From an uncultured Pirellulaceae bacterium (lineage in GTDB: Bacteria > Planctomycetota > Planctomycetia > Pirellulales > Pirellulaceae): DNA of 62,552 bases. The stretch covers positions 1 to 62,552 of the forward strand of contig CALFUT010000026.1 in NCBI GenBank assembly GCA_937929805.1. Reading direction: 5' to 3'. This document shows, in pieces, positions 883-62,552 of this stretch (the first letter of the stretch is position 1; the number at the start of each line of letters is the position of its first letter). The translations under genes were made by a program, and so were the position numbers. The notes under the pieces were generated by a model, which saw only the letters and a program-made list of their open reading frames with translations, did no database searches and was not told the origin of the DNA.

Positions 883-886
883 GTTT

Positions 887-1189: not shown

Positions 1190-1290
1190 GGGCACAACTT
1201 CGTTGTGGTGCTGGCCTCGAGTCCATTATACAATGAGTCCCAATTCAATCCACCTTCGCTTTGGCGGGCGGTATCGTAAAAACACTTCGT
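1190..1290 (-). promoter_or_regulatory. Promoter region of the first toxin-antitoxin module
   Basis: On the minus strand a perfect TATAAT box lies at 1225-1230, upstream of the antitoxin start at 1135. No good -35 box is at the right distance. The block resembles 1880-1980, upstream of the second module (shared words include ATTGAATTGGGA and TTTTTACGATACCGCCCGCC). Conservation in both copies suggests promoter and antitoxin operator sequence. Confidence 0.5.
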
Positions 1291-1303
1291 TGGACAACGC
1301 AGC

Positions 1304-1591: not shown

Positions 1592-1833
1592 TAGGACTGC
1601 TGTTCTTCAATGGCTTTGATCCGCTGTCGGGCTTCAGCGTATACCTCATGTGCATCAATTCCCTTACCACGATCTAGCTCGTCGATTCCAGCTTGAATAT
1701 CTGCATGCAGCTTTTCGCGAGCAATCACCAATCGAATGCCCTCATTGACAATTGCTTGCTCGTTTTGAAACTTTCCTTGTGCAATCAACTGTTGCACTTG
1801 GCTTCCGTAGTCGCTAGGGATATCTGTGCTCAT
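1591..1833 (-). CDS. ParD-like antitoxin (80 aa)
   Basis: Antitoxin partner of the toxin at 1304-1591. The start is ATG at 1831-1833 (MSTDIPSDYGSQVQQLIAQG), preceded by GAGGA about 6 bases upstream. The upstream extension of the frame has no start signal and runs into the promoter repeat. Residues 10-45 (QVQQLIAQGKFQNEQAIVNEGIRLV) match the RHH-type DNA-binding region of ParD proteins. The second half is a charged helix (IQAGIDELDRG, then ARQRIKAIEEQQS). Expected to repress its own promoter and neutralise the toxin. Clearly related to the antitoxin at 887-1135, with the same gene order and spacing. Confidence 0.82.
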   Translation of the reverse strand: MSTDIPSDYGSQVQQLIAQGKFQNEQAIVNEGIRLVIAREKLHADIQAGIDELDRGKGIDAHEVYAEARQRIKAIEEQQS

Positions 1834-1879
1834 ATCGTCCTCAGGGTTTGGCGACGTCCAACATGGTGTTGACGCAAAG

Positions 1880-1980
1880 TCGTTCGGCACACCTTCGCTA
1901 TGGTGCAGACGTCGCATCCATCATACATTGCATCCCAATTCAATCCACCCTCGCTTCGGCGGGCGGTATCGTAAAAACCT
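1880..1980 (-). promoter_or_regulatory. Promoter region of the second toxin-antitoxin module
   Basis: A TATGAT box on the minus strand (1920-1925) lies upstream of the antitoxin at 1833. The block is the second copy of the region at 1190-1290. It extends into a shared GC-rich part (CGCCCGCCGAAGCGAGGG) and ACGATACCG. Duplicated together with the genes. Confidence 0.45.
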
Positions 1981-2117
1981 TCCGTTGTCGGACGCAAGGG
2001 CATTGGCGGATCCCAATCCATACCGACGGCCGACTTTTGAGAAGCAACGCGGCGTTGGACGTGGCGCGCGATCCCGATGGTGTAACGGCAAAGTCCTGCC
2101 GTTTTTGCACGGTGTGC

Positions 2118-3488: not shown

Positions 3489-3512
3489 GAAAGAGATTTT
3501 CGAAAAGCAAAC

Positions 3513-3545
3513 AAAAAAAGGCTCTGCCGTATTATCGGCAGAGCC
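3513..3545 (-). terminator. Rho-independent terminator, minus strand
   Basis: A perfect 10-bp stem GGCTCTGCCG / CGGCAGAGCC with a 6-base loop (3520-3545) is followed on the minus strand by seven T. It would end the transcript of the gene at 3906-4655 and insulate it from the kinase homologue, whose start is only 25 bases further on. Confidence 0.85.
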
Positions 3546-3905
3546 ATTGGTCGCAGTTCACGTTTTAACCGGTTTGAGTAAGGCAGAAGGCAAGTTTAAA
3601 CCTACCTGTAAATGCATTGAAACGTCAAAGGATTTCCTCAATTCTGACGGCGGCTATGTTCTGCCACTTGCCTAACCGAGCACTCAAATGATTGGCTTGT
3701 TCGCAATCCGTTGCTCCGAGCGTTCCTTCGCTCAACTCAGCATCAACTTGGCTCGATCCGTCCCAGTTCTAATTTCATGCATTTATCAAATTGAAGACGC
3801 TAGCAGTCTCGGTTTCTCTAGGATCCGTCCCGGATGCAAACCGTGGCTGACTGGCAAACTTCAACTGATTCCTTGCTTGCTGCAAGATCCGTCGGTCGAC
3901 TTGAC
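3546..3905. other. No gene seen (360 bases)
   Basis: Gap between the terminator and the stop of the amidotransferase-like gene. Short open frames here have no homology signature or ribosome site. No repeat or RNA gene was recognised. Confidence 0.4.
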
Positions 3906-4655
3906 TTAGGCAGCGACTCGTAGGTCGGCACCCACTGGCTCGCGGACCAGATCGAGGAATTCTTCGAAGATTCGCAAGTCAAGTGCCGAGGCAGCGTCAT
4001 TTTCCGGATGGAACTGAGTTCCGATCGCGATCCAATCGGGCATGTCGGACTCAATGGCTTCGACGATTCCGTCGGGGCAGCGAGCGGTGACTCGGAAGCC
4101 AGCAGCAAGTTCATCAATCGCCATGTGATGACGGCTGCTGACGCGGATCTCGCCATCGCCATAGACGCGGCCCATCAATGAATCTGACACCACTTCCAGT
4201 CCATGACGATGCGCGGGGTCCAGTGGATCGCGGTGAGGAATTGCGGTTGGCACATCGTCGTTGATGTTCAAAAACAGGTTGCCGTGCATGGTAACGTTCA
4301 GCAACTGCATGCCGACTCCGATGCCGAATACAGGCAGTCGCATGTCAGCGATCAGTTGCATCAGCTTGCGGTCAAAATTCTCACGTCGAGCCGACATTGG
4401 CCGAACGGAAGGATGCAGCATGAAGCCGTCTTTTCGGGGATCAAGATCCGCGCCACCGACTAGAACAAAACCATCCAACTTATCAAGAATCGCCTGAATG
4501 TCGTCTTCTTCGGCCATCGGCGGAACAATCACTGGGATTCCACCAGCTTTCAGGATACTGTCGTAGTAGCCTGCGGTGACGACTGAGAAAGAAGGCTGCT
4601 TGCCTTCAGCTGTGCGGTAGTCTGCGTTGATTCCGATTAGTGGCTTAGTCTGCAT
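3906..4655 (-). CDS. Peptidase C26 / PuuD-like amidotransferase without its catalytic Cys
   Basis: 249-residue class I glutamine amidotransferase-fold protein closest to the gamma-glutamyl-GABA hydrolase (PuuD, peptidase C26) group. Family features in order: PLIGINADYR at the N-terminus, GGIPVIVPP (38-46), GFVLVGGADLDP (62-73), the nucleophile-elbow region PVFGIGVGMQLLN (108-120), SSRHHMAID (173-181) and TQFHPEND (213-220). The His and Glu of the triad (H216, E218) are present. The elbow reads G-I-G-V-G where active members have G-x-C-R-G, so the nucleophile Cys is Gly113 here. The protein should not hydrolyse gamma-glutamyl bonds by the normal mechanism. The start at 4655 is chosen for AGGAGAG 7 bases upstream; a terminator follows at 3513. 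Confidence 0.85.
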   Translation of the reverse strand: MQTKPLIGINADYRTAEGKQPSFSVVTAGYYDSILKAGGIPVIVPPMAEEDDIQAILDKLDGFVLVGGADLDPRKDGFMLHPSVRPMSARRENFDRKLMQLIADMRLPVFGIGVGMQLLNVTMHGNLFLNINDDVPTAIPHRDPLDPAHRHGLEVVSDSLMGRVYGDGEIRVSSRHHMAIDELAAGFRVTARCPDGIVEAIESDMPDWIAIGTQFHPENDAASALDLRIFEEFLDLVREPVGADLRVAA

Positions 4656-5179
4656 CTGGTCTCTCCTGAGAATAACGGTTACTTCGTTAACGTTCGCCAA
4701 CTTGCCTGTTAGTGTCAGGCGATTTTCGTTAGCATGTTTGAGCCCACTCCATTACAAGGTGGGTCCGAAGAAACAACCGTTTAGCTCAGCGTTGATGCTG
4801 GAAAGCGGTAGCAGGCAGGATGTTGGGTAATTTCATTGGAGCCAATCGAGACTTCCAATGCCTTTTTACCAACTTCAGCAAGTCCTGTGCTTAGTCGGAA
4901 TCCTTGGGGGCTTGAACGTGTTGCAGTCATTTGCAACAAGGCCAATTCTTATGTTTGATTTTGAACCGTCAAACGATCTCGGCTATTTCTGGGCTTGCGA
5001 GATATCAGCCACAGGATGTTGTGCAAGCAAAAAGCAAGTGCTAGCACGCGTTTTGTGAGGTGTTTCATCTTCACTCAGTTGCGACGATTTCTTGCAAGAC
5101 CAGAATTCGTCCAAATTCCCCTAAAATACAGCTATTTTCTCGTTATTGAAGCTTGGACGCCAACCTTTCGACCAGCACC
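4656..5179. other. Divergent intergenic region (524 bases)
   Basis: Lies between the minus-strand amidotransferase-like gene and the plus-strand OleA-like gene, so it must hold both promoters. No convincing paired -35/-10 boxes, repeat or RNA was picked out. Confidence 0.35.
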
Positions 5180-6259
5180 ATGAAATACAACCACGTCTGT
5201 TTGGAGTCTTTTGGTTACACGATTCCAAAAGAAATTTGGACCAGCGATGAGGTCGAGGAGAAGCTTACGCCGCTGTATGAGCGTTTGCGGCTTCCGTCTG
5301 GGCGGCTGGAATTGATGACCGGTATCCGCGAGCGTCGTTTCTGGGCACCCGGAACGCCCCCCAGCGAGTTAAGCGTTGTTAGTTGCAAAAATGCGTTGGA
5401 GGCCGCATCGTTTCCGGCAGATCGCGTCGGCAGTTTGATTCATGGTTCCGTGTGTCGAGACTTTCTGGAACCGGCGACCGCCTGCAAGGTTCATCACCAA
5501 GTTGGATTGCCTCAGCAGGCGATGATTTTCGATGTGTCCAACGCTTGCTTGGGAATCCTGACGGGGATCTCCCAAGCCGCCAACATGATCGAGCTCGGGC
5601 AAATTAAGGCCGCGCTGGTTGTTGGTAGTGAGGGTGGGCGACAACTGGTCGAAACGACCATCAACACGCTCAATCAGGATTCCGCATTGACGCGAAAGAC
5701 GATCAAGCAGGCAATCGCCAGTTTGACAATCGGCTCAGCCAGCTGTGCCGTTTTGTTGACTCACGATTCGATTAGCCAGACGGGGAATCGATTGGTTGCG
5801 GCGGCGGTCAACGCGAATACTCAGTGGCACGATTTATGTCAGAGCCATCAGGATCAGGCCGGTGCGGACATGGCTCCGTTGATGTCAACCGATTCCGAGG
5901 AGTTACTCAAGCGAGGCGTCGAAACTGGAGTCGCAACCTTGGCGGACTTCTTCGAAGCCTCCGGTTGGAACGCCGAAACGGTTGATCGTACCATTTGTCA
6001 TCAGGTGGGGATCGCGCATCAGAAACTGATGCTGGAATCGTTTGGCTTTGATCCGGTCAACGACTTCGTGACTTTCGACACCTTGGGCAACACCGGCGCT
6101 GCGGCGCTGCCGGTTTCAATGGCGATGGCGTGTGAGCAAAACTTTGTTCGGCCGGGCCACAAAGTTGCGATGCTGGGCATCGGCTCGGGGATCAACTCGA
6201 TGATGATGGCGGTCGAGTGGAATCAGACGCTGGTCAAAGGGACCACTTACGGAAAGTGA
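5180..6259 (+). CDS. oleA: OleA-like thiolase (head-to-head acyl-CoA condensation)
   Basis: 359-residue thiolase-fold enzyme. OleA joins two fatty acyl-CoAs head to head to a beta-keto acid, the first step of long-chain olefin synthesis; the FabH (KAS III) group is the alternative. Evidence for OleA: catalytic Cys123 in FDVSNACLG and Glu97 in CRDFLEPATA are 26 residues apart, the same spacing as Glu117/Cys143 of Xanthomonas OleA. The His and Asn motifs are ICHQVGIAHQ and FDTLGNTGAAALP, and GIGSGINSM lies near the C-terminus. The frame is open to TTG at 5153, but ATG at 5180 (MKYNHVCLESFGY) gives the normal N-terminus. No oleB, oleC or oleD lies in the window, so pathway membership is inferred. 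Confidence 0.8.
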   Translation: MKYNHVCLESFGYTIPKEIWTSDEVEEKLTPLYERLRLPSGRLELMTGIRERRFWAPGTPPSELSVVSCKNALEAASFPADRVGSLIHGSVCRDFLEPATACKVHHQVGLPQQAMIFDVSNACLGILTGISQAANMIELGQIKAALVVGSEGGRQLVETTINTLNQDSALTRKTIKQAIASLTIGSASCAVLLTHDSISQTGNRLVAAAVNANTQWHDLCQSHQDQAGADMAPLMSTDSEELLKRGVETGVATLADFFEASGWNAETVDRTICHQVGIAHQKLMLESFGFDPVNDFVTFDTLGNTGAAALPVSMAMACEQNFVRPGHKVAMLGIGSGINSMMMAVEWNQTLVKGTTYGK

Positions 6260-50614: not shown

Positions 50615-50631
50615 TCACCCAAAGTAAAAGC

Positions 50632-50715
50632 GAACACCAGAATAAACGCGAACCCCAAACTAAACGCGGACCCCAAACTAAACGCGAACGCCAAACTAAA
50701 CGCGGACGTAAGCGC
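50632..50715 (+). repeat. 18-bp tandem repeat between the DUF1592 and DUF1552 genes
   Basis: Four full units (50632-50649, 50650-50667, 50668-50685, 50686-50703) and a partial fifth, consensus GAACCCCAAACTAAACGC with GGAC/GAAC variation. It begins 18 bases after the first stop and ends 22 bases before the next ATG. Confidence 0.85.
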
Positions 50716-50737: not shown

Positions 50738-52126
50738 ATGAACAGTCAACCCAGAACCGAACCACTTTCGCGCCGCACCATGTTGCGCGGCATCGGTGCC
50801 GCCATTGCCTTGCCGTGGCTGGAAGCCATGTCTGGCCCGTCGCCGTTGATTTCCAGTGTCGCAAGTGCTGCGGTTACCCCGACTGCGGATGGGCCGCCTG
50901 TACGAATGGGATTCTTATACGTGCCCAACGGGATGCACATGCCCGATTGGAAACCTCGCGGCCCGAGCGAAACGAAGTTCGAACTGCCCAAAATTCTGCA
51001 GCCCTTAAAAGCTCACCGAAAGCAGATGAACGTCATTACCGGCCTAGCGCTCGACGGAGCCAAAGCACACGGTGACGGCGGCGGTGATCACGCGCGCAGT
51101 GTTGCGGCGTTTCTAACCGGCGCTCATCCTCGCAAAACGCACGGCAGTGAAATTCGCAACGGAATCTCCGTGGACCAGGTCGCAGCAGAACGGATCGGGC
51201 ATCTGACTCGGCTGAAGTCGCTGGAACTTGGGACCGAGGACAGCGCCTTGGGAGGAGACTGCGACACCGGCTACAGTTGTTTATACACCTCAAATATTTC
51301 ATGGCGAACCGAAACGTCTCCGCTAGGAAAAGAGGTGGATCCGGCAGCCGTCTTTGAAAGGTTGTTCGGAACCGATCGCGGACACGGGACCAAAGCGATG
51401 GCTGCTCGTGAAAAACGCCGCAAGAGCATCCTAGATTTTGTGCTGAGCGATGCGAAAAAACTAAGCGGCGACCTTGGAGTCAACGATCGCCGCAAGTTCG
51501 ACGAATACTTATACGCCGTGCGTGACATTGAACGCCGGTTGCAGAAAACGGACAAGCTTGAACAGCGTGAGCAGGGCGTTCCCGACTATCCGCGGCCCGT
51601 TGGCGTTCCCGAAAACTATGGCGAACACGTTCGGCTGTTGCTCGACATGATGGCGTTAGCGTTCCAGACCGACTCGACCCGCGTTAGCAGTTTCATGTTT
51701 GCCAACGCCGGCAGTAATCGCAGCTATCGAAACCTGTCCATCAGTGGCGGCCACCACAATATCTCGCACCATGGAAACGCTCACGACAAACAGCAGAAGA
51801 TCAGCCGGATCAATCAGTATCACGCCAGCCTCGTCACGCACTTGATTGATCGGCTGGCCGGCATTCGCGAGGGCAACGGCACGCTATTGGACAACTGCAT
51901 GATCGTTTACGGCAGCGGAATTTCCGACGGGAATCGCCACAGCCATACCGATCTTCCGATCGCATTGTTCGGTGGCGGTGGCGGCAGCATCAAAACAGGC
52001 CGTCACATTCGCGTCCGTACCGGGACACCGTTGACCAACCTGTATCGCTCGATGCTAGAACGTGTCGGCGCGCCTGTTGAGAAATTCTCTGACTCCAACG
52101 GCGTGATACGAGAACTGAAGTCGTAA
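50738..52126 (+). CDS. DUF1552 exported protein
   Basis: 462 residues. A Tat-type signal (PLSRRTMLRGIGAAIALPWL, twin Arg at 12-13) precedes the family body: VRMGFLYVPNGMHMPDWKP, GDHARSVAAFLTGAHPRKTH, SCLYTSNISWRTETSPLGKE, MMALAFQTDSTRVSSFMFAN and MIVYGSGISDGNRHSHTDLP. This resembles the alkaline-phosphatase-like DUF1501/DUF1552 group; His and Asp residues in DGNRHSHTDLP could bind metal. GGAG lies 6 bases before the ATG. It is the standard partner of the preceding cytochrome-type gene in planctomycetes; the joint function is unknown. Confidence 0.92.
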   Translation: MNSQPRTEPLSRRTMLRGIGAAIALPWLEAMSGPSPLISSVASAAVTPTADGPPVRMGFLYVPNGMHMPDWKPRGPSETKFELPKILQPLKAHRKQMNVITGLALDGAKAHGDGGGDHARSVAAFLTGAHPRKTHGSEIRNGISVDQVAAERIGHLTRLKSLELGTEDSALGGDCDTGYSCLYTSNISWRTETSPLGKEVDPAAVFERLFGTDRGHGTKAMAAREKRRKSILDFVLSDAKKLSGDLGVNDRRKFDEYLYAVRDIERRLQKTDKLEQREQGVPDYPRPVGVPENYGEHVRLLLDMMALAFQTDSTRVSSFMFANAGSNRSYRNLSISGGHHNISHHGNAHDKQQKISRINQYHASLVTHLIDRLAGIREGNGTLLDNCMIVYGSGISDGNRHSHTDLPIALFGGGGGSIKTGRHIRVRTGTPLTNLYRSMLERVGAPVEKFSDSNGVIRELKS

Positions 52127-52285
52127 GGTTGAAGTTGTGGAACTGTAGATACAAACTACCCTCGTCGCAAATTCACTGGCCGGCGATTTTTTTGTGTTGC
52201 ACTAATACAAGCCCGAAGCGCAAGCGAGTGGATCTCCGTGGTGCTTTCCAATTCCCTCGCTCGCGCCCCGGCCGTTTAGTTTATA

Positions 52286-52384
52286 TAGAGCGCATTTCGT
52301 TTAAGCCTAGCGGCTTTTCGCTACGTTCAACTCGGTTTTTACAACGCCACAGACGCTACAGTTAAGTGCAACATGCACTAGCCC
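52286..52384 (-). repeat. 99-bp interspersed repeat, copy B
   Basis: Reverse-orientation partner of 42945-43043. Directly upstream (about 52207-52275) is another imperfect palindrome of the type CCCGAAGCGCAAGCGAG ... CTCGCTCGCG. The whole gap 52127-52731 is repeat debris without a gene. Confidence 0.8.
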
Positions 52385-52437
52385 AGCTTGACGAGCCGGA
52401 ACCGAATTCAAACGGGAAACGAAAAGGGCAGCGTCCC

Positions 52438-52517
52438 GGGAGTGGAAGGCTCCGCCCGCCCCACTTTGATACTTGTCCCTTTCATGCCGCACGACTCGTG
52501 AGGCATCTCGTCCTCAC
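52438..52517 (+). repeat. Interspersed palindromic repeat, copy 3 (diverged)
   Basis: 80 bp, aligning without gaps to 28518-28597 at about 70% identity; the left part (GGAAGGCTCCGCCCGCCCCA) is best kept. The right half has lost the palindromic match. Confidence 0.6.
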
Positions 52518-52731
52518 GGCAACACGCTGCTTCAACATAGCGGCGAAATGAAAAAGGCCGTTCTTCGACGAAGCAACCAGCCAAAACGCAAACGGTCGGG
52601 GCTTCCAGCGTTGTGCGAGCATGCAACTAATCACGCATCCTTTCGGGCTGAGCAAATAAATTCATCCGCACTGACCAGATGTGTCACGCCGGGAATAGAA
52701 TCTGTGAAAACAACAGTTAGCAACAAAAAGT

Positions 52732-52759
52732 TTGCATCTATCTCGTGAATCGATATATT
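52732..52759 (+). promoter_or_regulatory. Candidate promoter of the cas operon
   Basis: TTGCAT (52732-52737) and TATATT (52754-52759) are 16 bases apart, 76 bases before the ATG at 52835. If real, it rules out the upstream GTG at 52745 as the cas3 start. Judged by eye. Confidence 0.4.
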
Positions 52760-52834
52760 GCTCGGTTTGCAAACGGGGTAGACGCTTTCAACTTTCGCGA
52801 CAACTTTCAGTTTTTGTTACATCGAGCCTATTGC

Positions 52835-55144
52835 ATGACGCACTACGCCCACTCACTGCCAAACGAGCCCGATCGAAGCAAATGGGAAACCATGCAAGAG
52901 CATGAAGAATTGGTATCTAAATATTGCTGTGAGCTCCTTTCGCGGATCGATCCGTCGCTGGAACGCTGGGGTGACTTGCTCGGTCGATGGCATGATTTGG
53001 GAAAGTACCATCCCGAATTTCAGAAAAAGCTGGAGGGGAAGCGAGTCCAAATTGAACATGCGGGCGCTGGTGCAAGATTGGCTTTCGAAAAGAACCAACA
53101 GAATGCAATCCCGATTTCATTTGCGATCGCTGGACATCACGCGGGACTGGCCAACCTGAAAACCAATTCGCCTCATGGTGGCAGGCTTCCGTTACTCGAT
53201 CGCTTGGCGAATAACGAGACCTTGTTGGGTGCATTCCGAAGCGTTTTACCAAGCGGTTTGGTTGACAATGAAATTCCACCGCTGCCAAGCTGGATTGATC
53301 CGGCCGACGCGAGATCGTTCAAATCATTAGAATTTTTCACACGCTTGCTGTTCTCTGCATTGGTTGATGCAGACAGACTCGCTACAGAATCGTTTTACGA
53401 CCAAGCAGAAGGGCGAGAATCTCGCACCAAGAAACTGAAATACGATGCGATTCAGCAGCTACGGGATCGAATTGATCACAGTATTGATCAGCTGTGCAAT
53501 GATGCAGCCAAGGATCTATCCGACGTCAATCAGTTTCGAAAATCTGTTTTGGATGACTGCCGTGCTGCTGCCGATTTGCAGACTGGCTTGTTCTCGTTGA
53601 CGGTGCCAACAGGTGGAGGAAAAACACTTTCTGCACTCAGTTTCGCGCTCAATCATGCCATCGAGAATAAACTCGATCGTGTCATCATTGTCATCCCGTA
53701 CACCAGTATCATTCGCCAAAATGCAAACGCATATCGAAAGGCACTTAGCCGTGATGACGCTCTGGACTGGCTAAACGTCGTCGAGCATCATTCGGGAATC
53801 GACGAACAGAAGGCAATGAAAGAAAGCAGCGAATCTCGGGAAGCGGAAATTCGCAGGCGGATCGCCGTGGAAAACTGGGACGCGCCGATTGTTGTCACCA
53901 CAGCAGTGCAGTTTTTCGAATCGCTTTTTACAGACCATCCGTCACAAGCCCGTAAGCTTCATCGAATCGCAAAAAGCGTGGTGATTCTTGACGAAGTTCA
54001 AACGTTGCCGCCTTCGTTGCTGACGCCGATCCTCGATGGAATCAATGAACTGGCAACGAACTATCGAACGTCCGTTGTTCTTTCTACCGCTACACCACCG
54101 TCACTTGCTAAACGAACTGATTTTCCACAAGGCTTGAGCAACATTCAACCAATCATCAAAGACGCGAAAGCGCTTGCTGCCTCGAAAGCCGCACGACGCG
54201 TAAAAGTCGAATGGCGAGTAGATGAAGAAACAACCTTCGAAGCACTGGCAAACGAAATCAAAGCCCTTCCCGAAAGACAGGCACTTGCAATTGTTCATCG
54301 CCGCAAGGATGCATTGGCACTGGCGCGATTGCTTCCAGAGTCTGACCGTGTTCATCTTTCCGCTCAAATGTGCCCGGCTCATAGAATCGCGGCGATTGCA
54401 GAAATTAATGATCGACTCGAATCTGGCAATCCTTGCTTGGTCGTTTCAACGCAATTGATCGAAGCGGGCGTTGATATTGATCTTCCAATCGTTTACCGGG
54501 CACTTGCCGGTTTGGACAGTCTCGCACAAGCTGCCGGTCGTTGTGACCGAGAGGGGCACAGAACAGAGAAGCTGGGGCGACCCGCCGGAAAACTGATTGC
54601 CTTCCTCGCCAAAACAACGCCACCAACAGAAACCCTGAAAAAGGCGATGGCTTGGACGATCCAACTTTACAAAGAGAAACAGGAAGAAGGGGCTGAACTC
54701 GATATCTTCGATCCGGATCACTGCAATGAGTTCTTCGCTCGGTTTTACAGATCAGAGTCGCTCGACGCCAAGGACATTCAGCAAAGCCGATCGTCTCTGA
54801 ATTTCAATGACGTCGGTTACAAGTTCCGCATGATCGAGAACGACTGGAGTTTCCCAATTGTCGCTCCGTGGCCAATGACGGGCACAGAACAAGGCGAAGG
54901 TATGAAGCGCGCTGAAGCGTTTCGAGAAGATCCCAATCGTGAAACGGCTCGCGCGTTGCAGCCGTATATCGTGCAAGTCCCCAAGCAAGCTGCACGTCAA
55001 ATGGAGCTGGATGGAATCGTCACGATCGAAGATGGCTCGTTGGGCCTGCCAACCGATATGTTTGATTCCAACTGGTACAGCGAAGAGTTTGGGCTTTCGT
55101 TTGAAACGCCTTCAGAAACAACAAACGTATTTTTCACGGAGTAA
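52835..55144 (+). CDS. cas3: Cas3, type I-C HD nuclease-helicase
   Basis: 769 residues from ATG 52835 (MTHYAHSLPNEPDRSKW), which matches the usual I-C Cas3 N-terminus; the frame is open to GTG 52745. Cas3 is recruited by Cascade to degrade target DNA. HD nuclease: His53-Asp54 (RWHDLGKYHP), His75 (IEHAGAGA), His101-His102 (AGHHAGL) and Asp178 (ALVDADR). Helicase: Walker A TVPTGGGKT (256-264), DEVQ box (386-389), STAT (417-420), VVSTQLIEAGVDIDLP, and QAAGRCDREG. All catalytic motifs are intact, so the effector should be active. First gene of the cas operon; cas5c begins 2 bases after its stop. Confidence 0.93.
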   Translation: MTHYAHSLPNEPDRSKWETMQEHEELVSKYCCELLSRIDPSLERWGDLLGRWHDLGKYHPEFQKKLEGKRVQIEHAGAGARLAFEKNQQNAIPISFAIAGHHAGLANLKTNSPHGGRLPLLDRLANNETLLGAFRSVLPSGLVDNEIPPLPSWIDPADARSFKSLEFFTRLLFSALVDADRLATESFYDQAEGRESRTKKLKYDAIQQLRDRIDHSIDQLCNDAAKDLSDVNQFRKSVLDDCRAAADLQTGLFSLTVPTGGGKTLSALSFALNHAIENKLDRVIIVIPYTSIIRQNANAYRKALSRDDALDWLNVVEHHSGIDEQKAMKESSESREAEIRRRIAVENWDAPIVVTTAVQFFESLFTDHPSQARKLHRIAKSVVILDEVQTLPPSLLTPILDGINELATNYRTSVVLSTATPPSLAKRTDFPQGLSNIQPIIKDAKALAASKAARRVKVEWRVDEETTFEALANEIKALPERQALAIVHRRKDALALARLLPESDRVHLSAQMCPAHRIAAIAEINDRLESGNPCLVVSTQLIEAGVDIDLPIVYRALAGLDSLAQAAGRCDREGHRTEKLGRPAGKLIAFLAKTTPPTETLKKAMAWTIQLYKEKQEEGAELDIFDPDHCNEFFARFYRSESLDAKDIQQSRSSLNFNDVGYKFRMIENDWSFPIVAPWPMTGTEQGEGMKRAEAFREDPNRETARALQPYIVQVPKQAARQMELDGIVTIEDGSLGLPTDMFDSNWYSEEFGLSFETPSETTNVFFTE

Positions 55145-55146
55145 TT

Positions 55147-55809
55147 ATGGCAAAAATCATCGTCTCTGGTCCGCTGGCAATTTTTTCGCGGCCGGAACTC
55201 AAAGTCGAACGGGTTTCTTACCCAGTTATTACGCCCTCGGCGGCTCGCGGCGTTTTTGAGGCCATCCTTTGGAAACCTGCCATTCGCTGGAACGTTCATC
55301 GAATTGCTGTGCTTAACGAAATTCAATGGACTGCTTTTCGACGAAACGAAGTCAGCAAACGAGCTCCTGAGCCATCAATGGCACTGGTCGATTCCGGTGG
55401 CACCGCTCCGGTGCTGTTTGCAGATAGCGAACGGGCGCAACGCAACACGGTCGCGCTGCGAGAGGTCAAATACGAAATCGAAGCCTCTTTCGAAATGACC
55501 TCTCGCGCTGGCAAAGGTGACAACCCTGCCAAATTCGCTGACATGTTTCGTCGTCGAGTCGAAGGCGGCCAGCATTTTCACCAGCCTTATCTTGGCTGCC
55601 GAGAGTGTGTCGCTGATGTCGAGCCATCTGACGGCAAGCAAACCCCAATCGGACAATCGCAAGACCTTGGCTTGATGCTATTCGATATTGATTACGCCAG
55701 CGACAAAAAAAAACCGTTGTTCTTCGACGCGGTGATGAAGAACGGAGTCATCGAAGTCCCCAGTTACCAACAAATCAAATCACAACAAAAAGCGAGGAAA
55801 GCGAAATGA
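55147..55809 (+). CDS. cas5c: Cas5c (Cas5d), type I-C pre-crRNA processing subunit
   Basis: 220 residues. In type I-C, Cas5 cuts the pre-crRNA and caps the 5' handle. Family motifs: SYPVITPSAARGVFEAILWK, WNVHRIAVLNEIQWTAFRRN, EVKYEIEASFEM and QHFHQPYLGCRECVADVEP. Compared from memory with Bacillus halodurans Cas5d (catalytic Tyr46, Lys116, His117), the first position is Leu41 (EAILWKP versus EAIYWKP type) and the Lys-His pair reads Lys-Phe (PAKFADMF). So only the Lys appears kept. Other I-C proteins may vary here too. ATG two bases after the cas3 stop; its TGA overlaps the cas8c ATG (ATGA). Confidence 0.92.
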   Translation: MAKIIVSGPLAIFSRPELKVERVSYPVITPSAARGVFEAILWKPAIRWNVHRIAVLNEIQWTAFRRNEVSKRAPEPSMALVDSGGTAPVLFADSERAQRNTVALREVKYEIEASFEMTSRAGKGDNPAKFADMFRRRVEGGQHFHQPYLGCRECVADVEPSDGKQTPIGQSQDLGLMLFDIDYASDKKKPLFFDAVMKNGVIEVPSYQQIKSQQKARKAK

Positions 55810-57806
55810 TCCTTCAAGCACTCGCACAGCTTACAAAAACTGAAAACCTGTTGGCTGGTGAACCCGACTATGAATTTCGCCGTGTCGCATGGGGTATCAG
55901 CATTAGCACAACGGGCAAGTTTCAAAAGCTGATTTCGTATCGCATCGACCGAAACGCAAACAACGATCGAAAAGAAGATTACGTTGGCAAATGGTCACTC
56001 GTTCCGAAACAGCCAATCAGGACCAGCGGTGCAAAGTCGTTTTTCCTTGTCGATAAATGTGAATACGCTCTCGGGCTCGACCCCACAGGTAAGCGAGGAA
56101 AAGACGCGCTTACCGAGCGTTCAGGTTTGTTTCTGGAACAGGTCAAGGCTTGGCACGACGAGACGGGCGACAAGACAGCAAATTCTTTGCTGGCGTTCCT
56201 GACTGATATCAAAAAGTACCAACCCGAAATTCAAAAAGACAAGAGCTTTGGCGAAATCGAACCCAATGATCTGATGGGTTTTTTGGTGAAAACGGATTGG
56301 ATTCACAGAGTAGAAGGGGCAAAAAAATTCTGGTCTACACTTCGTTTGCAAGAGGATGTCGATGAAGACGCACCGACCTATCAATGCCTCGTTTCCGGAG
56401 AGGAAATTTCTGACATTCCACTCTTTCCGCTGGTCAAACGTGTCCCTGGTGGAACCTCCAGCGGGGTAGCACTGGTTTCTCACAATGCCAACGCGTTTAA
56501 CTCTTACGGCTTGGACGGCAACGAAAATGCTCCTGTGTCTCGCGAAATCAGCGAAGCGTGCGGAATTGCTTTGGCTAGGTTGCTTGATCCGCAGTTTCCC
56601 AACCCAGACAACTTGGATGCGACACTGGAACCTAGATTCATTCGACTTGGATCGAACACTGCCGTTTGCTATTGGACACGTGAGAAAAACAACGAAGCCG
56701 AGAGCGCCCTCAACGCACTCGGGAATTTGATTTCCGGCGAAGACGAAGCTTCCGTTGAGAAAAACCTGAAGTCAATCTGGTACGGACGCCCGGCCAAACT
56801 CAACAAGCCAAACGCCTTCTACGCATTGACCATTTCCGGTACACAAGGCCGCGCCATCATTCGTGACTGGCTGGAAACTTCGCTCAACGAGGTCAATGAA
56901 AATCTCGCTCAGCACTTCGCCGATTTGGCCATCTGCCGCAACACTCAACCAAAGAAAAGAACCGCTGAAAGCCCTGCGGTCCCTATGAATTGGTTGCTCA
57001 AATCACTCGCCGCCGAAGGACGTTCAGATCCCGTTCCACCAACGGTGGAATCTGGATTCATTCGCTCGGCCTTCCAAGGCAAACCGTACCCTTTGCAAAT
57101 GTTGCAGCGGGCTTTGGTTCGCAGCCGAGCCGAAGCCGGTGGCGACGAGTGGACTGATTCGATGCGTCGCGACGCGAGGGCATCAGTCCTTAAGGCTGTA
57201 TTGAATCGACGCAAACGAAAGCAACTGAACTTTACTGACTATCCTGAGGTGACAATTGATATGAATCCAGAATCCAGAAACACAGGTTACGCGCTCGGCA
57301 TGTTGATCGCGGTGCTGGAGCAACTGCAACGATTGGCGCTCGATGACGTAAATGCATCGGTGGTTGACCGTTATTTCAGCGCGGCTTCGGCAAGTCCCAA
57401 GAGCGTCTTTGTCCGGCTATTGAAAAACAGCCTTCATCACTACCGCAAGGCAAGCAAGTCTGAAAAGAAGCAAAATCGAAGTAGCGCTCGCTACATGGAA
57501 CGCGTCAAAGACGAAATTCTATCGTGGCTGAAAGTGGACGCACCAAAAACTCAAGAACCCGAAAAGCGAAAGAGGCCGTTGCCGTACCCGGCCAGCATGA
57601 CGACACCGTTTGGAATTCCTTCCAGCCTGTCCTTGGAAGACCAAGGCCTTTTCGTGCTCGGATACCACCAAATGCGTCATTGGATCTTCATGAAGAAAGA
57701 GCCACGTGCTGAATGGGAAAAGCAGTATCCAAACGCACCAGCAGTTTTCCTGCGAAAGAAGCAAGACGAGATTGAAAAGGAAGAACTCGAAGCGGGGACT
57801 GCCTAA
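55806..57806 (+). CDS. cas8c: Cas8c (Csd1), large subunit of I-C Cascade
   Basis: 666 residues, a little longer than typical Csd1 (about 590). It recognises the PAM and recruits Cas3. Family features: MILQALAQLTKTENLLAGEP start, WGISISTTGKFQKLISYR, LVDKCEYALGLDP, LVSGEEISDIPLFPLVKRVP, LVSHNANAFNSYGLDGNENA, NTAVCYWTREKN, FYALTISGTQGRAIIRDWLE, and NTGYALGMLIAVLEQLQRLA near the C-terminus. I-C systems also make a small subunit (Cas11c) from an internal start in this gene; a candidate Met lies in the last third (ATG 57589 region, or Met at RYMERVKDEI), not proven. ATGA overlap with cas5c; a repeat follows before cas7c. Confidence 0.93.
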   Translation: MILQALAQLTKTENLLAGEPDYEFRRVAWGISISTTGKFQKLISYRIDRNANNDRKEDYVGKWSLVPKQPIRTSGAKSFFLVDKCEYALGLDPTGKRGKDALTERSGLFLEQVKAWHDETGDKTANSLLAFLTDIKKYQPEIQKDKSFGEIEPNDLMGFLVKTDWIHRVEGAKKFWSTLRLQEDVDEDAPTYQCLVSGEEISDIPLFPLVKRVPGGTSSGVALVSHNANAFNSYGLDGNENAPVSREISEACGIALARLLDPQFPNPDNLDATLEPRFIRLGSNTAVCYWTREKNNEAESALNALGNLISGEDEASVEKNLKSIWYGRPAKLNKPNAFYALTISGTQGRAIIRDWLETSLNEVNENLAQHFADLAICRNTQPKKRTAESPAVPMNWLLKSLAAEGRSDPVPPTVESGFIRSAFQGKPYPLQMLQRALVRSRAEAGGDEWTDSMRRDARASVLKAVLNRRKRKQLNFTDYPEVTIDMNPESRNTGYALGMLIAVLEQLQRLALDDVNASVVDRYFSAASASPKSVFVRLLKNSLHHYRKASKSEKKQNRSSARYMERVKDEILSWLKVDAPKTQEPEKRKRPLPYPASMTTPFGIPSSLSLEDQGLFVLGYHQMRHWIFMKKEPRAEWEKQYPNAPAVFLRKKQDEIEKEELEAGTA

Positions 57807-57828
57807 ACAACGAGCACTCAACCGTTCG

Positions 57829-57886
57829 TAGCACCGCCTTTAGGTGGAATCGTCCAACAACTTATTCCGGTGGAAGCCGGGACTAC
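57829..57886. repeat. REP-like palindrome between cas8c and cas7c
   Basis: Arms starting GTAGCACCGCC and ending GGTGGAAGCCGGGACTAC form an imperfect inverted repeat of about 58 bp. It lies in the 126-base gap between two genes that are normally almost contiguous in I-C operons. Confidence 0.6.
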
Positions 57887-57932
57887 AAACAAAAACGAAC
57901 CAGATTCAATTTTTTATTCGAAAGCAAACCTC

Positions 57933-58880
57933 ATGGCAAAGAAATCAACTGTCGCCGAACCATCAACCGGTGAACTCGCCAAAAAAGCAATCAAAAACCG
58001 TTACGAATTCGTACTGTTGTATGACGTAAAAAACGGCAACCCCAACGGAGATCCGGACGCCGGAAACGCTCCACGCGTCGATCCAGAAACTGGACATGGA
58101 CTTGTTTCTGACGTTTGTCTAAAGCGGAAGATTCGCAACTTCATCACACTCGTCAAACGCGATGCCGAAGGTAAACCGGATGATGGTTTTGACATTTACG
58201 TCAAAGAGAAAGCGATTCTCAACGAGCAGCACCAGCGGGGATACGATGCACTGGGACTCGATCCAAAGAAAAAGGAGGGAAAGCTCAAAGAAGGTGAAAG
58301 CCCAAAGGAGGAACGCGTTCGCCGCTGGATGTGCAACACGTTCTTTGACGTACGCATGTTCGGCGCTGTCATGAGCACCAAGGTCAACGCAGGCCAAGTC
58401 CGCGGCCCAGTCCAGATTTCCTTTTCACGCAGCATCGAGCCGATCGTTTCGCTTGAGCAGTCAATCACGCGGATGGCTGTTACAACTGAAAAAGAATCAC
58501 AAGCCCAAGACGGAGGCAACCGAACGATGGGGCGTAAGGAGATCGTGCCCTACGCTCTCTATCGAGTCCACGGATACGTCAGCCCATTTTTGGCAGAACA
58601 AACCGGCTTCAGCGATAAAGATCTTGAATTGCTTCTAAATTCATTGGTTCAAATGTTCGACCATGATCGCTCGGCATCACGAGGCGAGATGAACCCTTGT
58701 GCTCTGGTCGTGTTCAAACATGAAAGCAAACTTGGCAACGCACCAGCAAAGAAACTCTTCGATCTAGTCGAAGTGGATCCGAAGAACCCCGGCACTCCAG
58801 CCCGGTCGTTCGATGACTATGAGGTCACGGTGAACAAAGACGCTACACCCAAAGGCGTAGAACTCGACGAGCGACTCTAA
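57933..58880 (+). CDS. cas7c: Cas7c (Csd2), backbone of I-C Cascade
   Basis: 315 residues from ATG 57933 (MAKKSTVAEPSTGEL); GTG 57870 would add 21 residues inside the preceding palindrome. Several copies coat the crRNA spacer. Characteristic I-C motifs: EFVLLYDVKNGNPNGDPDAG followed by NAPRVDPETGHGLVSDVCLK, RKIRNFI, WMCNTFFDVRMFGAVMSTK, VRGPVQISFSRSIEPIVSLE, MGRKEIVPYALYRVHGYVSP, and FDHDRSASRGEMNPCALVVF. N-terminal 20 residues are extra compared with the shortest homologues. Its stop overlaps by three bases the stop of the minus-strand gene that follows. Confidence 0.94.
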   Translation: MAKKSTVAEPSTGELAKKAIKNRYEFVLLYDVKNGNPNGDPDAGNAPRVDPETGHGLVSDVCLKRKIRNFITLVKRDAEGKPDDGFDIYVKEKAILNEQHQRGYDALGLDPKKKEGKLKEGESPKEERVRRWMCNTFFDVRMFGAVMSTKVNAGQVRGPVQISFSRSIEPIVSLEQSITRMAVTTEKESQAQDGGNRTMGRKEIVPYALYRVHGYVSPFLAEQTGFSDKDLELLLNSLVQMFDHDRSASRGEMNPCALVVFKHESKLGNAPAKKLFDLVEVDPKNPGTPARSFDDYEVTVNKDATPKGVELDERL

Positions 58881-59131
58881 CCAAGTCCCTCAAACTCAAA
58901 CCGCTTCGTCGATCCGTCCAATTTCGTTGTAATCCGGATCGGCCAGCGGGTGACTTTTTCATCCACGATCGTTTCAATCTCGCCCTCGGTCGCATCGACC
59001 GCCTGAGCATCGCCCAGCAACGCAAATCCGGGACCAAGGTGGCCTAATTCATATCGCTGATTACCAATATGCAGATTCAATTTAACGTCAGCCGAAAACG
59101 TTCCGTTTTCATTTTGAGCATTCGAAATCAT
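58877..59131 (-). CDS. Unknown 84-residue protein, antisense inside the cas operon
   Basis: Not recognised. 84 residues from ATG 59129-59131 (MISNAQNENG...), preceded by GGGAG 5 bases upstream; GTG 59137 would add two residues. The body is soluble and beta-rich: TFSADVKLNLHIGNQRYELG, HLGPGFALLGDAQAVDATEG, TRWPIRITTKLDGSTKRFEF. The repeated TFSADV/KLN and IRIT/KLDG patterns suggest a small beta barrel or sandwich. Its ATG overlaps the ATG of the plus-strand kinase-like gene in a shared CATG, and its TAG overlaps the cas7c TAA. A gene running against a cas operon with no free base at either end is unusual. A similar arrangement with the kinase-like gene elsewhere would show they are a unit. Confidence 0.6.
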   Translation of the reverse strand: MISNAQNENGTFSADVKLNLHIGNQRYELGHLGPGFALLGDAQAVDATEGEIETIVDEKVTRWPIRITTKLDGSTKRFEFEGLG

Positions 59132-59636
59132 GGCCACTCCCGAAATTGAACAACGAACCCAACACTACTGCGATCGCCGAGGATGCTCGATCGATTCACG
59201 TTTGGGCGTTGGAACTCAGGGTAGTGTATACGCGGTCAATATTCCATCCCAATCGCCCAACCATTTTGATCAGGTTGCCGTGAAATTTCACGATCGGGAA
59301 GTCGCCTACGACCGCGAACTTGCAGTCTTTTTAAGGCTAAAAGACCTCAACATTGACAACGTTTGTGGACACCGCGTTCCGCTTCTAACCAATCACGACG
59401 ACGAACTCTTAGCACTCGAAATGACCATCGTAGGCCCTCCATTCTGCCTCGACTTTGGCGGAGCCTATCTCGATCGCCCACCCGATTACTCGCCCGAAGT
59501 TTGGCGCGATTGGGAAGAAATGAAATCCATGGCCTTTGAAGACAACTGGCCCCACGTGAAAAAAATCCTCTCGACGCTGGAAACCTACGGAGTCTACGTT
59601 GCCGACGTGAACCCCGCAAATATCAAGTTTCGTTGA
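59130..59636 (+). CDS. Protein-kinase-like small protein between cas7c and cas4
   Basis: 168 residues with a protein-kinase-like N-lobe and catalytic loop: glycine-rich loop SRLGVGTQGSVYAV (23-36), likely ATP Lys52 (VAVKFHD), Glu63 (AYDRELAVFL), hinge-like LLALEMTIVGPPF, and the catalytic-loop-like VYVADVNPANIKF with Asp159 and Asn164. It ends four residues later, at Arg168, so the DFG/activation segment and most of the C-lobe are absent. It may be a minimal kinase, a degenerate one, or an ADP/ATP-binding regulator. There is no good ribosome site; the start shares CATG with the divergent gene at 58877-59131. Not a known Cas protein to my knowledge. Confidence 0.65.
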   Translation: MATPEIEQRTQHYCDRRGCSIDSRLGVGTQGSVYAVNIPSQSPNHFDQVAVKFHDREVAYDRELAVFLRLKDLNIDNVCGHRVPLLTNHDDELLALEMTIVGPPFCLDFGGAYLDRPPDYSPEVWRDWEEMKSMAFEDNWPHVKKILSTLETYGVYVADVNPANIKFR

Positions 59637-59673
59637 GAGAGTACAGTTTTTAGTTTTCAGGGTTCTGAAGCAA

Positions 59674-59708
59674 TTCCGCATTCCGCATTCCGCCTTCCGC
59701 CTTCCGAC
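59674..59708 (+). repeat. 7-bp tandem repeat upstream of cas4
   Basis: Five units of TTCCGCA/TTCCGCC/TTCCGAC, starting at 59674, 59681, 59688, 59695 and 59702. They end 9 bases before the cas4 ATG, where a ribosome site is expected; unit number could affect expression. Confidence 0.8.
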
Positions 59709-59717
59709 CTCAAAAAC

Positions 59718-60383
59718 ATGTTCGACGAAAACCAACTTCTCCCCATCTCAGCCCTCCAGCACCTGATCTTCTGCGAGCGACAGTGCGCCTTGATCCATGT
59801 CGAACAACTCTGGGCCGAAAACGTGCTGACCGTCGAAGGAAAACAGCTGCACGAAAAAGCCCATGAAGGGAAATCAGAAACCGCGGGCAGCATTCGCATC
59901 GCCCGCTCACTATGGCTCAAGTCAAACCAACTCGGCTTGATCGGACAGGCCGACATCGTCGAATTTCACGATGACGGGCAAGTCATTCCCGTCGAATACA
60001 AACGCGGCAAACCCAAAAAGGACGATTCCGATCGCGTCCAAATCTGCGCCCAAGCAATGTGCCTCGAAGAAATGCTCAACGTATCAATCGATCAAGCGTT
60101 TTTATTCTACGGCACCAAACAAAGACGCACCGAAGTCGCCATCGACCAGCCGCTGCGAGAAATCACGCGTTCCAAAATCGATCGCCTGCGGCAGATGATC
60201 GACCAACGCGAAACACCCATCGCGGCCCGAATGCCCAAGTGTGACAAATGCTCGCTGGTCGAGCTATGCATGCCCGATTCTCAGCGGCTCAGCCGGGGCG
60301 TCAAGGCGTGGAACGAGCGGCAATACTCGCTGGCCAGCAAATCCGGCGTACCCGAATCCGATATGTTCTCGATTTATGAATAG
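59718..60383 (+). CDS. cas4: Cas4, Fe-S RecB-family nuclease
   Basis: 221 residues. Cas4 trims prespacers and helps select PAM-containing ends for Cas1-Cas2. RecB nuclease residues: GQADIVEFHD (Asp79) and IPVEYKRGKPK (Glu93, Lys95), with the downstream Gln motif in RVQICAQAMCLEEML. The Fe-S cluster has its N-terminal Cys19 in LIFCERQCAL and C-terminal Cys175, Cys178 and Cys184 in KCDKCSLVELC. Complete. Start ATG 59718; the preceding 9 bases are just after a 7-bp tandem repeat. Separated by 225 bases from cas1, longer than usual. Confidence 0.93.
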   Translation: MFDENQLLPISALQHLIFCERQCALIHVEQLWAENVLTVEGKQLHEKAHEGKSETAGSIRIARSLWLKSNQLGLIGQADIVEFHDDGQVIPVEYKRGKPKKDDSDRVQICAQAMCLEEMLNVSIDQAFLFYGTKQRRTEVAIDQPLREITRSKIDRLRQMIDQRETPIAARMPKCDKCSLVELCMPDSQRLSRGVKAWNERQYSLASKSGVPESDMFSIYE

Positions 60384-60475
60384 GCTCAAGGGTTGATGCG
60401 AACAGGTATGACTTTCAGGAACATCGCACGCTGGTTCAGAGCTTGTTTTAACAGAATGTACGAGAGGAACAGGAT

Positions 60476-60505
60476 TCATGACACTTTCAATCATGACACT
60501 TTCAA
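60476..60505 (+). repeat. 15-bp tandem duplication between cas4 and cas1
   Basis: TCATGACACTTTCAA occurs at 60476-60490 and again at 60491-60505. It sits in the 225-base cas4-cas1 gap, which holds no other feature that I can see. Confidence 0.7.
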
Positions 60506-60608
60506 TCAAATCAAAAATCTTCAAGCATCATCAGGCTAAACCCTGTTCAACCTGTCTGAAAACCGTTTCCTCTGGTCTTGCCTCGATCGACAACTGAAAG
60601 CCTCCACC

Positions 60609-61640
60609 ATGAAACGCCACTTAAACACATTGTTCGTGACCACCGAAGGAGCCTACCTGAAGAAAGACGGACAAGCGGTTGTCGTTTCCATTGAGAAGGA
60701 AAACAAGCTGCGGCTGCCGCTGCACAACCTTGACGGCATCGTCTGTTTTGGCAACATCATGTGCAGTCCGTTTCTGATGGGAGCCTGTGCCAAGGCCGGA
60801 GTTTCAATCTCCTTCCTGACCATGTACGGCGGGTTTATCGCAGCAGTCAATGGTTACTCGCCGGGCAACGTGCTGCTGCGACGCGAGCAATACCGTTGGG
60901 CAGACGTGCCCGAGCAGACCCTAAAGCTAGCCCAGCATTTTGTGGCAGCCAAGATCGCCAACAGCCGCAACACATTGCTTCGAGCCGCCCGCGACTGTTC
61001 GAATTCTGAATCCAAGAACATCATGCAAAAAATCGCCAAACGAATGGCACACGATGTCGAAGCCGCCCGGCAGTCGACCAACCTTGATTCGCTACGAGGA
61101 ATCGAGGGCGAGAGTGCCAATACCTACTTCTCCGTCTTCAACCACATGATCGCATCTCGAGCCGAAGGGTTTGAGTTCACCGGCCGATCCCGACGACCGC
61201 CGTTGGACCGCATTAACGCCCTGCTCTCTTTTCTTTACTCGATGTTGACTCATGATGCCCGCAGTGCGTGTGAAGCGACAGGACTGGACGCGGCCGTCGG
61301 CTTCCTACATCGTGATCGGCCGGGCCGCCCAGGTTTATCGTTAGACCTGATCGAGGAATTTCGTGCCTTCATCGCCGATCGATTGGCTCTTTCCTTGATC
61401 AATCGAAAACAGATTCAGGCCAAAGATTTTGAGATTACTGAAAATGGAGCCGTCCTTCTTAAGGACAAACCTCGCAAAGCCGTTTTGGCCGCCTATCAGA
61501 AACGAAAGCAAGACACGATCACCCACCCATTCCTTGGTGAGAAAACCACAGTCGGCCTTCTGATCCATCTGCAGGCACGTTTACTGGCCCGTCATCTGCG
61601 AGGAGACCTCGACGACTATCCTCCTTTTCTTTGGAAATAA
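60609..61640 (+). CDS. cas1: Cas1, CRISPR integrase
   Basis: 343 residues of the I-C Cas1 group. Integrates new spacers as a complex with Cas2. N-terminal beta domain: [57 protein letters not shown]. Helical catalytic domain: [20 protein letters not shown] (metal Glu in EGESA), [20 protein letters not shown] (His and Asp), and [20 protein letters not shown] (third acidic ligand). All are intact. Start ATG 60609 follows CCACC; no strong ribosome site. Cas2 starts 3 bases after the stop. Confidence 0.96.
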
Positions 61641-61643
61641 CCC

Positions 61644-61934
61644 ATGTACGTATTGGTCACCTACGACGTCAGCACTCAAGACAAAGCTGGCCGTCGACGT
61701 TTACGCCGAATCGCAAAGACCTGCCTTGATTATGGGCAACGTGTCCAGAACTCAGTGTTCGAGCTACTGGTCGATCCGACTCAGTGGGCCGAATGCAAAG
61801 CCAAGCTAATCAAAGAGTACAAACCAGAAGAGGACAGCCTTCGATTCTATTTTCTTGGTTCGAAGTGGAAACGAAAGGTCGAGCACCACGGGACTAAGCC
61901 ATCCACTGACATGGAGGGTCCATTGATCATCTGA
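61644..61934 (+). CDS. cas2: Cas2, adaptation endonuclease-like subunit
   Basis: 96 residues. MYVLVTYDVSTQDKAGRRRL (conserved N-terminal Asp after YDV) and RIAKTCLDYGQRVQNSVFEL are the Cas2 signatures; LRFYFLGSKWKRKVEHHG follows. Bridges two Cas1 dimers in the integration complex. Starts 3 bases after cas1 and is the last cas gene; the leader and array follow directly. Confidence 0.95.
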   Translation: MYVLVTYDVSTQDKAGRRRLRRIAKTCLDYGQRVQNSVFELLVDPTQWAECKAKLIKEYKPEEDSLRFYFLGSKWKRKVEHHGTKPSTDMEGPLII

Positions 61935-62169
61935 TGGCGTCCAGCTGTCAGATGGCATCCGGCTTGATGGTCGATTCACGGAATTTAATCCGTCGCGAAC
62001 GACAAGCGATGCCCAAAAAGGCGGCCGGTTCGCGATTTCATTATTCCTCGATGTTCTTTGACAATTGAATCAATGATTGAAATTGTGTGCGTATTTTAAG
62101 GCACGAACGAGTCATGTTCGCGAATCAGCCACTCTTGGCCCTTGGCGTGCAAGGACTTACACTAACGCT
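61935..62169 (+). promoter_or_regulatory. CRISPR leader
   Basis: 235 bases between the cas2 stop and the first repeat. TTGACA occurs at 62058-62063, with a weak -10 region (AATTGT, 62081-62086) 17 bases on; it could drive the array. An AT-rich stretch (62050-62100) is as expected for a leader. The proximal 50 bases next to repeat 1, where integration signals lie, show no obvious motif. Confidence 0.7.
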
Positions 62170-62552
62170 GTCGCGCCCTCACGGGCGCGTGGATTGAAAC
62201 AGAACCGTTACGCTTAAAGACCCATTTGTCTTGTAGCGTCGCGCCCTCACGGGCGCGTGGATTGAAACATCCCGCCAAAGTTTTCAGAGAATGACAATGC
62301 AGGTCGCGCCCTCACGGGCGCGTGGATTGAAACATCTGCTTGACTTGATCGATCTCGCCCATCTTTGTCGCGCCCTCACGGGCGCGTGGATTGAAACGGC
62401 TGCCGAAGCAAACGTCGGTGACTCTTCGCCGGTCGCGCCCTCACGGGCGCGTGGATTGAAACTCTCGATTGCGTCCAGTAGTTTCTTACCAAGCAAGTCG
62501 CGCCCTCACGGGCGCGTGGATTGAAACGGTTGGTTGGGTTTTTCTTCGCCAT
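62170..62552 (+). CRISPR. Type I-C CRISPR array, leader-proximal part
   Basis: Six identical 31-bp repeats start at 62170, 62238, 62303, 62367, 62432 and 62497. The repeat begins GTCGCGCCC and ends GCGTGGATTGAAAC, typical of type I-C, with a 7-bp hairpin CGCGCCC-TCAC-GGGCGCG. Spacers are 37, 34, 33, 34 and 34 bases; the sixth is cut by the window end at 62552. The cas genes are directly upstream, so this is the leader end with the newest spacers. No match of a spacer to other parts of the window was noticed. Confidence 0.98.

Follow-up and report, generated by a model that had tools for sequence, protein, structure and literature searches.

The window analysed in this work is a stretch of 62,552 nucleotides of DNA from an uncultured Pirellulaceae bacterium (contig CALFUT010000026.1 of assembly GCA_937929805.1), near one end of which lies a type I-C clustered regularly interspaced short palindromic repeats (CRISPR) locus consisting of cas3-cas5c-cas8c-cas7c, an inserted pair of genes, cas4-cas1-cas2 and an array. 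The pair comprises a minus-strand gene for a protein of 84 residues, here called MINUS, and a plus-strand gene for a protein of 168 residues with kinase features, here called KIN. Open reading frames (ORFs) and cas profiles confirmed both genes between cas7c and cas4, where an earlier note made from the sequence had placed them. The same holds for the overlap of their start codons in a single CATG, and for that of the MINUS stop (58877–58879) with the stop of cas7c. MINUS is read from the ATG at 59131; an alternative GTG start six bases upstream would give a protein of 86 residues. As argued below, KIN and MINUS are proposed, with a rough probability of 0.55, to form a toxin-antitoxin (TA)-like module, with KIN as toxin and MINUS as antitoxin, that has repeatedly become nested in CRISPR loci.

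Table 1. The KIN/MINUS pair and the surrounding type I-C locus in window coordinates.
Feature	Position	Strand	Basis
MINUS, 84-aa PilZ-like beta-barrel protein, proposed antitoxin	58877..59131	-	ORF, head-to-head homologues, dN/dS, AF2, Foldseek
KIN, minimal protein kinase of 168 aa and proposed toxin; PADLOC ST_Kinase	59130..59636	+	PDLC01137, AF2, Foldseek, catalytic residues
CATG, overlapping ATGs of MINUS and KIN	59129..59132	.	common to 80/92 non-redundant pairs
cas3	52745..55144	+	Pfam, NCBIfam
cas5c	55147..55809	+	TIGR01876
cas8c/csd1	55806..57806	+	TIGR01863
cas7c/csd2	57870..58880	+	TIGR02589
cas4	59718..60383	+	TIGR00372, PDLC01773
cas1c	60609..61640	+	TIGR03640
cas2	61644..61934	+	TIGR01573
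CRISPR array, cut by window end, 6 repeats visible	62169..62527	.	direct repeats

Homologues were sought in 392 genomes of the phylum, 397 genomes of the class and GTDB contigs. A single window protein as query found no match in the contigs, and an alignment as query returned 47 loci, mostly with Planctomycetota titles, one with that of a Chthoniobacter and one with that of a Deltaproteobacteria. At E <= 0.001, KIN was matched in 80/397 and MINUS in 97/397 class genomes, with a few of each being weak matches in long unrelated frames. The distribution of the pair is sporadic. A phage or plasmid origin was dropped, as searches of viral contigs, plasmids and phages, made with KIN only, gave no match.

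In nearly all homologue loci MINUS stands head-to-head with KIN. Among 92 non-redundant pairs with a near-full KIN (non-redundant meaning different KIN segments, so that close relatives are still counted), the two ATGs interlock in phase within CATG in 80, the commonest other offset occurs in 5/92, and 88 have the two frames in the correct relative phase. Given that 80 of 92 pairs have this one offset, the arrangement is far from chance. Six of the 12 non-redundant pairs without CATG stand at cas-linked loci (L075, L081, the second copy at L083, L136, L143 and L144).

Both frames are conserved as proteins. The ratio of nonsynonymous to synonymous substitution rates (dN/dS) was 0.07–0.25 for KIN in 11 of 15 pairs of relatives and 0.04–0.23 for MINUS in 9 of 15, the remaining pairs being saturated in each case; between the window and the same-genus locus L219 the MINUS value was 0.14. 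KIN and MINUS are both real genes, linked and under purifying selection. A chance origin of the MINUS ORF could be suspected from its lack of annotation, as MINUS has no match in Pfam, NCBIfam or PADLOC at E <= 1 and no single Pfam family matches more than one of its 37 relatives. It is ruled out by the homologues in 97/397 class genomes together with the low dN/dS, and a fairly confident predicted fold also argues against it, leaving it a negligible probability.

The profile PDLC01137 of PADLOC-DB covers residues 5–167 of KIN with its positions 4–162 of 162 (E 1.1e-63). Its text describes an ST_Kinase with a putative adaptation module operon beside I-C systems in Rhodopirellula species, and the position of KIN between cas7c and cas4-cas1-cas2 agrees with such a place beside an I-C adaptation module. 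The statement in the earlier note that no I-C operon is known with such genes is thus contradicted. KIN of the window has no match in Pfam and a weak one in NCBIfam (E 0.19), and the HipA profiles of both databases do not match it at E <= 1; its relatives match APH in 3/37 and Pkinase in 1/37 cases in Pfam at E <= 0.1. The AlphaFold2 (AF2) model has a predicted local distance difference test (pLDDT) score of 94.6, and its six Foldseek matches at E <= 0.001 are five CK2 structures and one PsiK, with template modelling scores normalized by query of 0.40–0.50. A profile search of PDB sequences matched kinases at both ends of KIN, the N-lobe and the catalytic loop, with a best E of 0.0027.

The features of a protein kinase N-lobe are present in KIN, namely the glycine-rich loop, the lysine and the αC glutamate, and the family conserves Lys52 (98/99), Glu63 (99/99), Asp159 (92/93) and Asn164 (93/93). 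The protein ends behind the Asp159–Asn164 loop, and no DFG follows it. These kinase motifs had been recognized in the earlier note; to be added is a second, invariant site, Asp108-Phe109 (98/98), 50 residues ahead of the catalytic loop and between the hinge and a long helix, at which the next residue is Ala in 54/98 and Gly in 40/98 sequences (either of them in 94/98). From its sequence this site may represent a relocated DFG, placed ahead of the catalytic loop. From sequence and model, KIN appears to be a minimal kinase whose catalytic residues hardly vary, the kinase activity itself not being certain.

The AF2 model of MINUS is a six-stranded barrel (pLDDT 85.2). PilZ domains were its best Foldseek matches, with a best E of 0.053 and none at E <= 0.001; four of the top eight bear the PilZ name and three more are presumably PilZ-containing proteins. 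The model is therefore described as a PilZ-like barrel on a weak match. PilZ domains bind cyclic di-GMP through the motifs RxxxR and [DN]xSxxG, and in this respect MINUS differs from the known receptors, as [DN]xSxxG occurs in 0/37 rows of its alignment and RxxxR in 14/37 at any place, with no fixed N-terminal site seen.

What the pair leaves behind when it decays is one-sided. Of 110 KIN loci, 88 carry both genes intact, where intact means that the span of the hidden Markov model match lies within one open frame and is no proof of a gene. A broken KIN accompanies an intact MINUS in 14 (including the second copy at L081, counted with the MINUS of its neighbour), a KIN cut by the contig end accompanies an intact MINUS in one, and a broken KIN a partial MINUS in one. 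MINUS is lacking at 5/110 loci. Four of these hold KIN fragments, and at the fifth (L089) a nearly whole KIN, scored intact, has lost its ATG and first residues, with an in-frame TTG left. In the remaining locus (L104) KIN is intact and the MINUS match partial, with the MINUS frame open and carrying CATG. Also examined were twenty places with MINUS and no intact KIN, hand-picked from a larger set of MINUS matches in class genomes. KIN is without a match at E <= 0.5 in 13 of these, five hold pieces of it and two are contig ends. Two comparisons within genera capture the loss itself. In L238 the body of KIN, relative to L121, has been replaced by ~200 unrelated bases, with MINUS and CATG kept and the flanks 92–97% identical; in L241, relative to L144 (both I-C operons, 88–92% nucleotide identity), ~350 bp are gone from KIN and MINUS is kept. 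Short ends of KIN are left in both.

A TA pair is expected to contain one gene that is tolerated alone and one that is not, and here MINUS persists without intact KIN and the reverse is seen at L089 only. Because the losses are one-sided, as a toxin and its antitoxin would leave behind, KIN is proposed to be toxic and MINUS to restrain it. Several points weigh against this. KIN has about twice the length of MINUS and chance would break it about twice as often; the 13 clean cases to 0 then give a probability of ~(2/3)^13 = 0.005, with the loci being non-independent. Should translation begin at its TTG, L089 may count as an exception, and MINUS may survive alone because it serves a further function. 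Without a DFG behind the catalytic loop, activity of KIN is not certain. Type II TA modules are usually co-directional and have a DNA-binding antitoxin, and TA modules are often common in viruses, plasmids and phages, where KIN found no match. Lastly, words resembling a Shine-Dalgarno sequence precede the ATG in just 19/80 KIN and 26/80 MINUS starts, counts that have no background control.

The link to CRISPR was surveyed from both sides. In 149 genomes of the same family, 17 I-C operons were found above the Cas7c cut-off, and five of these carry the pair between cas7c and cas4. Three of them (the window, L204 and L206) have both genes whole, and the remaining two (L205 and L219) have a broken KIN. 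The other 12 are without the pair; one (L217) shows no cas4 in the stretch examined, and another (L209) has a gap of ~660 bases at that site. L219 is of the same genus as the window, and the two share 73–85% identity in the pair and adaptation genes, compared with 43.5% in cas7 and 24% in cas8. Given this similarity of the pair and adaptation genes beside divergent cas7 and cas8, the pair has travelled with the adaptation module. Viewed over window positions 52745–61934, the same comparison presents an effector-module swap between same-genus I-C operons.

From the side of KIN, 17 of 103 non-redundant loci lie near cas genes and 86 have none in the flanks examined. This set leaves out the window and four loci fetched through cas genes (L205 was found by KIN, yet fetched with the cas loci). 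Since the cas profiles were grown from the I-C genes of the window, they can overlook other types; at 39 of 108 loci the flank on one side is shorter than 5 kb. Of 18 loci with cas hits one (L121) was left uncounted, its helicase match being judged by eye not to be Cas3; the linkage rests on helicase matches alone at L082 and L083, on Cas3 alone at L075 and on cas fragments at L147. Random placement would, by rough expectation, put fewer than one of 103 KIN loci near cas genes.

The cas-linked copies lie in loci of types I-C, I-G and V-B. PADLOC confirmed I-G at L080 (Cas7g, Cas5-6g, Cas3g and Cas8g) and for one gene in L085, the other I-G calls being made by similarity to these, and identified a Cas12b match in the V-B locus L091. 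Position and orientation of the pair vary among the cas loci, and long cas matches surround a broken KIN in L205, L219 and L220. KIN may therefore not be needed in cas loci, several of which still give long cas matches with KIN broken. An accessory specific to I-C was dropped as an explanation, since the majority of copies are without visible cas genes and some further ones lie in I-G and V-B. Of the linked accessory pair suggested in the earlier note, the linkage, the selection and the presence in I-C operons stand and the tie to I-C does not. That note had also reasoned that the unit would not be real if its homologues were scattered without each other or without cas genes, or if the minus frame lacked purifying selection. 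The outcome is mixed: the pair is rarely split on the KIN side and MINUS is under selection, but most copies stand without cas genes.

These counts bear on an alternative in which KIN and MINUS are a signalling pair, KIN phosphorylating a partner (Cas proteins where cas-linked, others elsewhere) and MINUS serving as adaptor, activator or sensor. The kinase fold of KIN with its nearly invariant catalytic residues, the weakly matched PilZ-like fold of MINUS and the presence in 5/17 same-family I-C operons all agree with such a role. However, an activator that KIN needed should decay after the loss of KIN, yet MINUS remains; cas genes lie near 17/103 loci only, and the broken KIN genes amid long cas matches point the same way. 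A signalling pair is thus considered unlikely. The phosphorylation-dependent control of Cascade suggested in the earlier note finds no support here, nor does anything speak against it.

A TA module need not serve CRISPR at all, and KIN and MINUS could be a selfish element for which cas loci are merely tolerant or defence-rich landing sites. The preponderance of copies without cas genes nearby, the variable position and orientation within cas loci, and the loss of KIN from several of these with cas matches still there would all follow from this. Two observations oppose it. In the same 80 genomes, and with rows merged or judged by eye in both cases, 6/~92 KIN loci lie within 15 kb of a Cas1 match, against 0/150 listed places of the toxin ParE, these being the best part of a longer list. 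In a KIN tree built by a quick method, the window falls in a clade of six (support 99), every member of which lies at cas genes or cas fragments, although cas genes were the reason for fetching four of these loci. In the same tree, 19 of 23 cas-linked rows fall into a clade of 28 rows with lower support (85). A purely selfish element appears somewhat improbable on balance. The passenger insertion considered in the earlier note is upheld in part, with the loss pattern pointing to a TA-like dependency. Many of the 80 genomes also encode a shorter and weaker Cas1-like protein (Cas1 positions ~3–255, ~80–115 bits), which is not beside the pair.

Alternatively, the pair may act in abortive infection beside CRISPR, with phage attack releasing KIN from MINUS and stalling the cell. 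The commonest neighbour cluster besides the pair contains Cas1 (14/108 loci, cas-fetched loci included), and a sporadic distribution with frequent decay would suit a defence role. Against this stands a search for other defence genes near the pair that consisted of PADLOC on 8 proteins only, and this role is given a low probability.

In the proposed TA-like module, KIN would be an ATP-dependent minimal kinase, harmful to the cell unless MINUS is present, and MINUS would restrain it, most simply through binding. Because the start codons interlock, the 5' ends of the two genes are inseparable. Any mRNA leader and ribosome-binding site of either gene would have to fall within its partner gene, in complementarity to the partner's mRNA, and the two genes could damp each other's expression. 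A weak G-rich stretch stands ~7–13 bases before the ATG of both KIN and MINUS, which hints at ribosome-binding sites within the opposite gene, and no AT-rich promoter-like signal was found just upstream of either ATG. Leadered mRNAs are therefore weakly favoured, and leaderless mRNAs starting at CATG were dropped. The pair is found at a wide range of sites, the majority without cas genes nearby, and has lodged repeatedly in I-C, I-G and V-B loci, where it would raise the cost of losing the locus or provide a further response that stalls the cell. We infer that KIN would be toxic by phosphorylating a target, that MINUS would inhibit it directly and that CRISPR would be guarded by the pair; a benefit to CRISPR is possible.

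A catalogue entry for the kinase beside I-C already exists in PDLC01137, which belongs to the same kinase family as KIN and is likewise placed with the adaptation module. The text of that entry covers the kinase alone, and the minus-strand partner, the shared start and the stand-alone, I-G and V-B copies are absent from it. No description of the partner, the shared start or the wider family was found in the accessible portion of the open-access literature. The closest parallel in location is CreTA, described in the part of the source available as a type VIII TA module nested in CRISPR loci that makes CRISPR loss costly (PMC12737573). KIN and MINUS would likewise form a poison-antidote module inside CRISPR loci. 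CreTA, however, is RNA-based and, in the same part of the source, repressed by Cascade through a CRISPR-like guide, whereas KIN and MINUS both look like proteins. The best match of the array repeat to the window cas operon was 21/31, inside cas8, compared with 17–20 in 15 simple shuffles, for this one operon. Nothing convincing as a CreTA-like RNA guide near the pair stood out in that operon.

With HipBA and HipBST, as far as their descriptions were available, the pair would share a serine/threonine kinase toxin checked by a partner protein. It differs in that KIN lacks a HipA match, has 168 residues and ends behind the catalytic loop; a PilZ-like partner and a head-to-head gene arrangement set it further apart. 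Most likely the pair is of the kinase TA kind, here head-to-head and nested in CRISPR loci. A bolder version, held to be distinctly improbable, would make it a protein-based counterpart of CreTA, in which an interlocked-start kinase toxin and PilZ-like antitoxin in I-C, I-G and V-B loci guard the locus and stall or kill cells whose CRISPR is lost or disabled, the kinase having a rearranged active site with a DFG-type motif ahead of the catalytic loop.

The pair may represent a guard of CRISPR immunity of a new type. A CATG kept nearly fixed throughout a large family offers an unusual, naturally occurring example of two genes with one start site, and allows testing of how overlapping 5' ends set TA balance. 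KIN, with a catalytic Asp and Asn and no following DFG, would indicate how far a kinase can be reduced and still work.

Elsewhere in the window, the true start of cas7c is probably downstream of the GTG at 57870. No Rfam match to known structured RNA was found in 52000–62552, and consensus promoters and terminators were not above shuffles in number. Tandem 18-base repeats lie at 50618–50707, directly after the end of an 805-residue ORF.

Among the homologue loci, L083 and L081 each hold two kinase copies close together. L083 also has two MINUS genes, and its second KIN copy is without the catalytic Lys and Asp. At L091 (positions 492–6155) the Cas12b-like ORF is 1888 residues long, of which residues 10–1868 match Cas12b profiles of ~1000–1130 positions, and may, judged by these lengths, hold large insertions. 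A WYL-type regulator cluster recurs near the pair at eight loci (L037, L075, L085, L106, L136, L137, L144 and L169), with the WYL identity confirmed by PADLOC for two of its members (L075 and L106).
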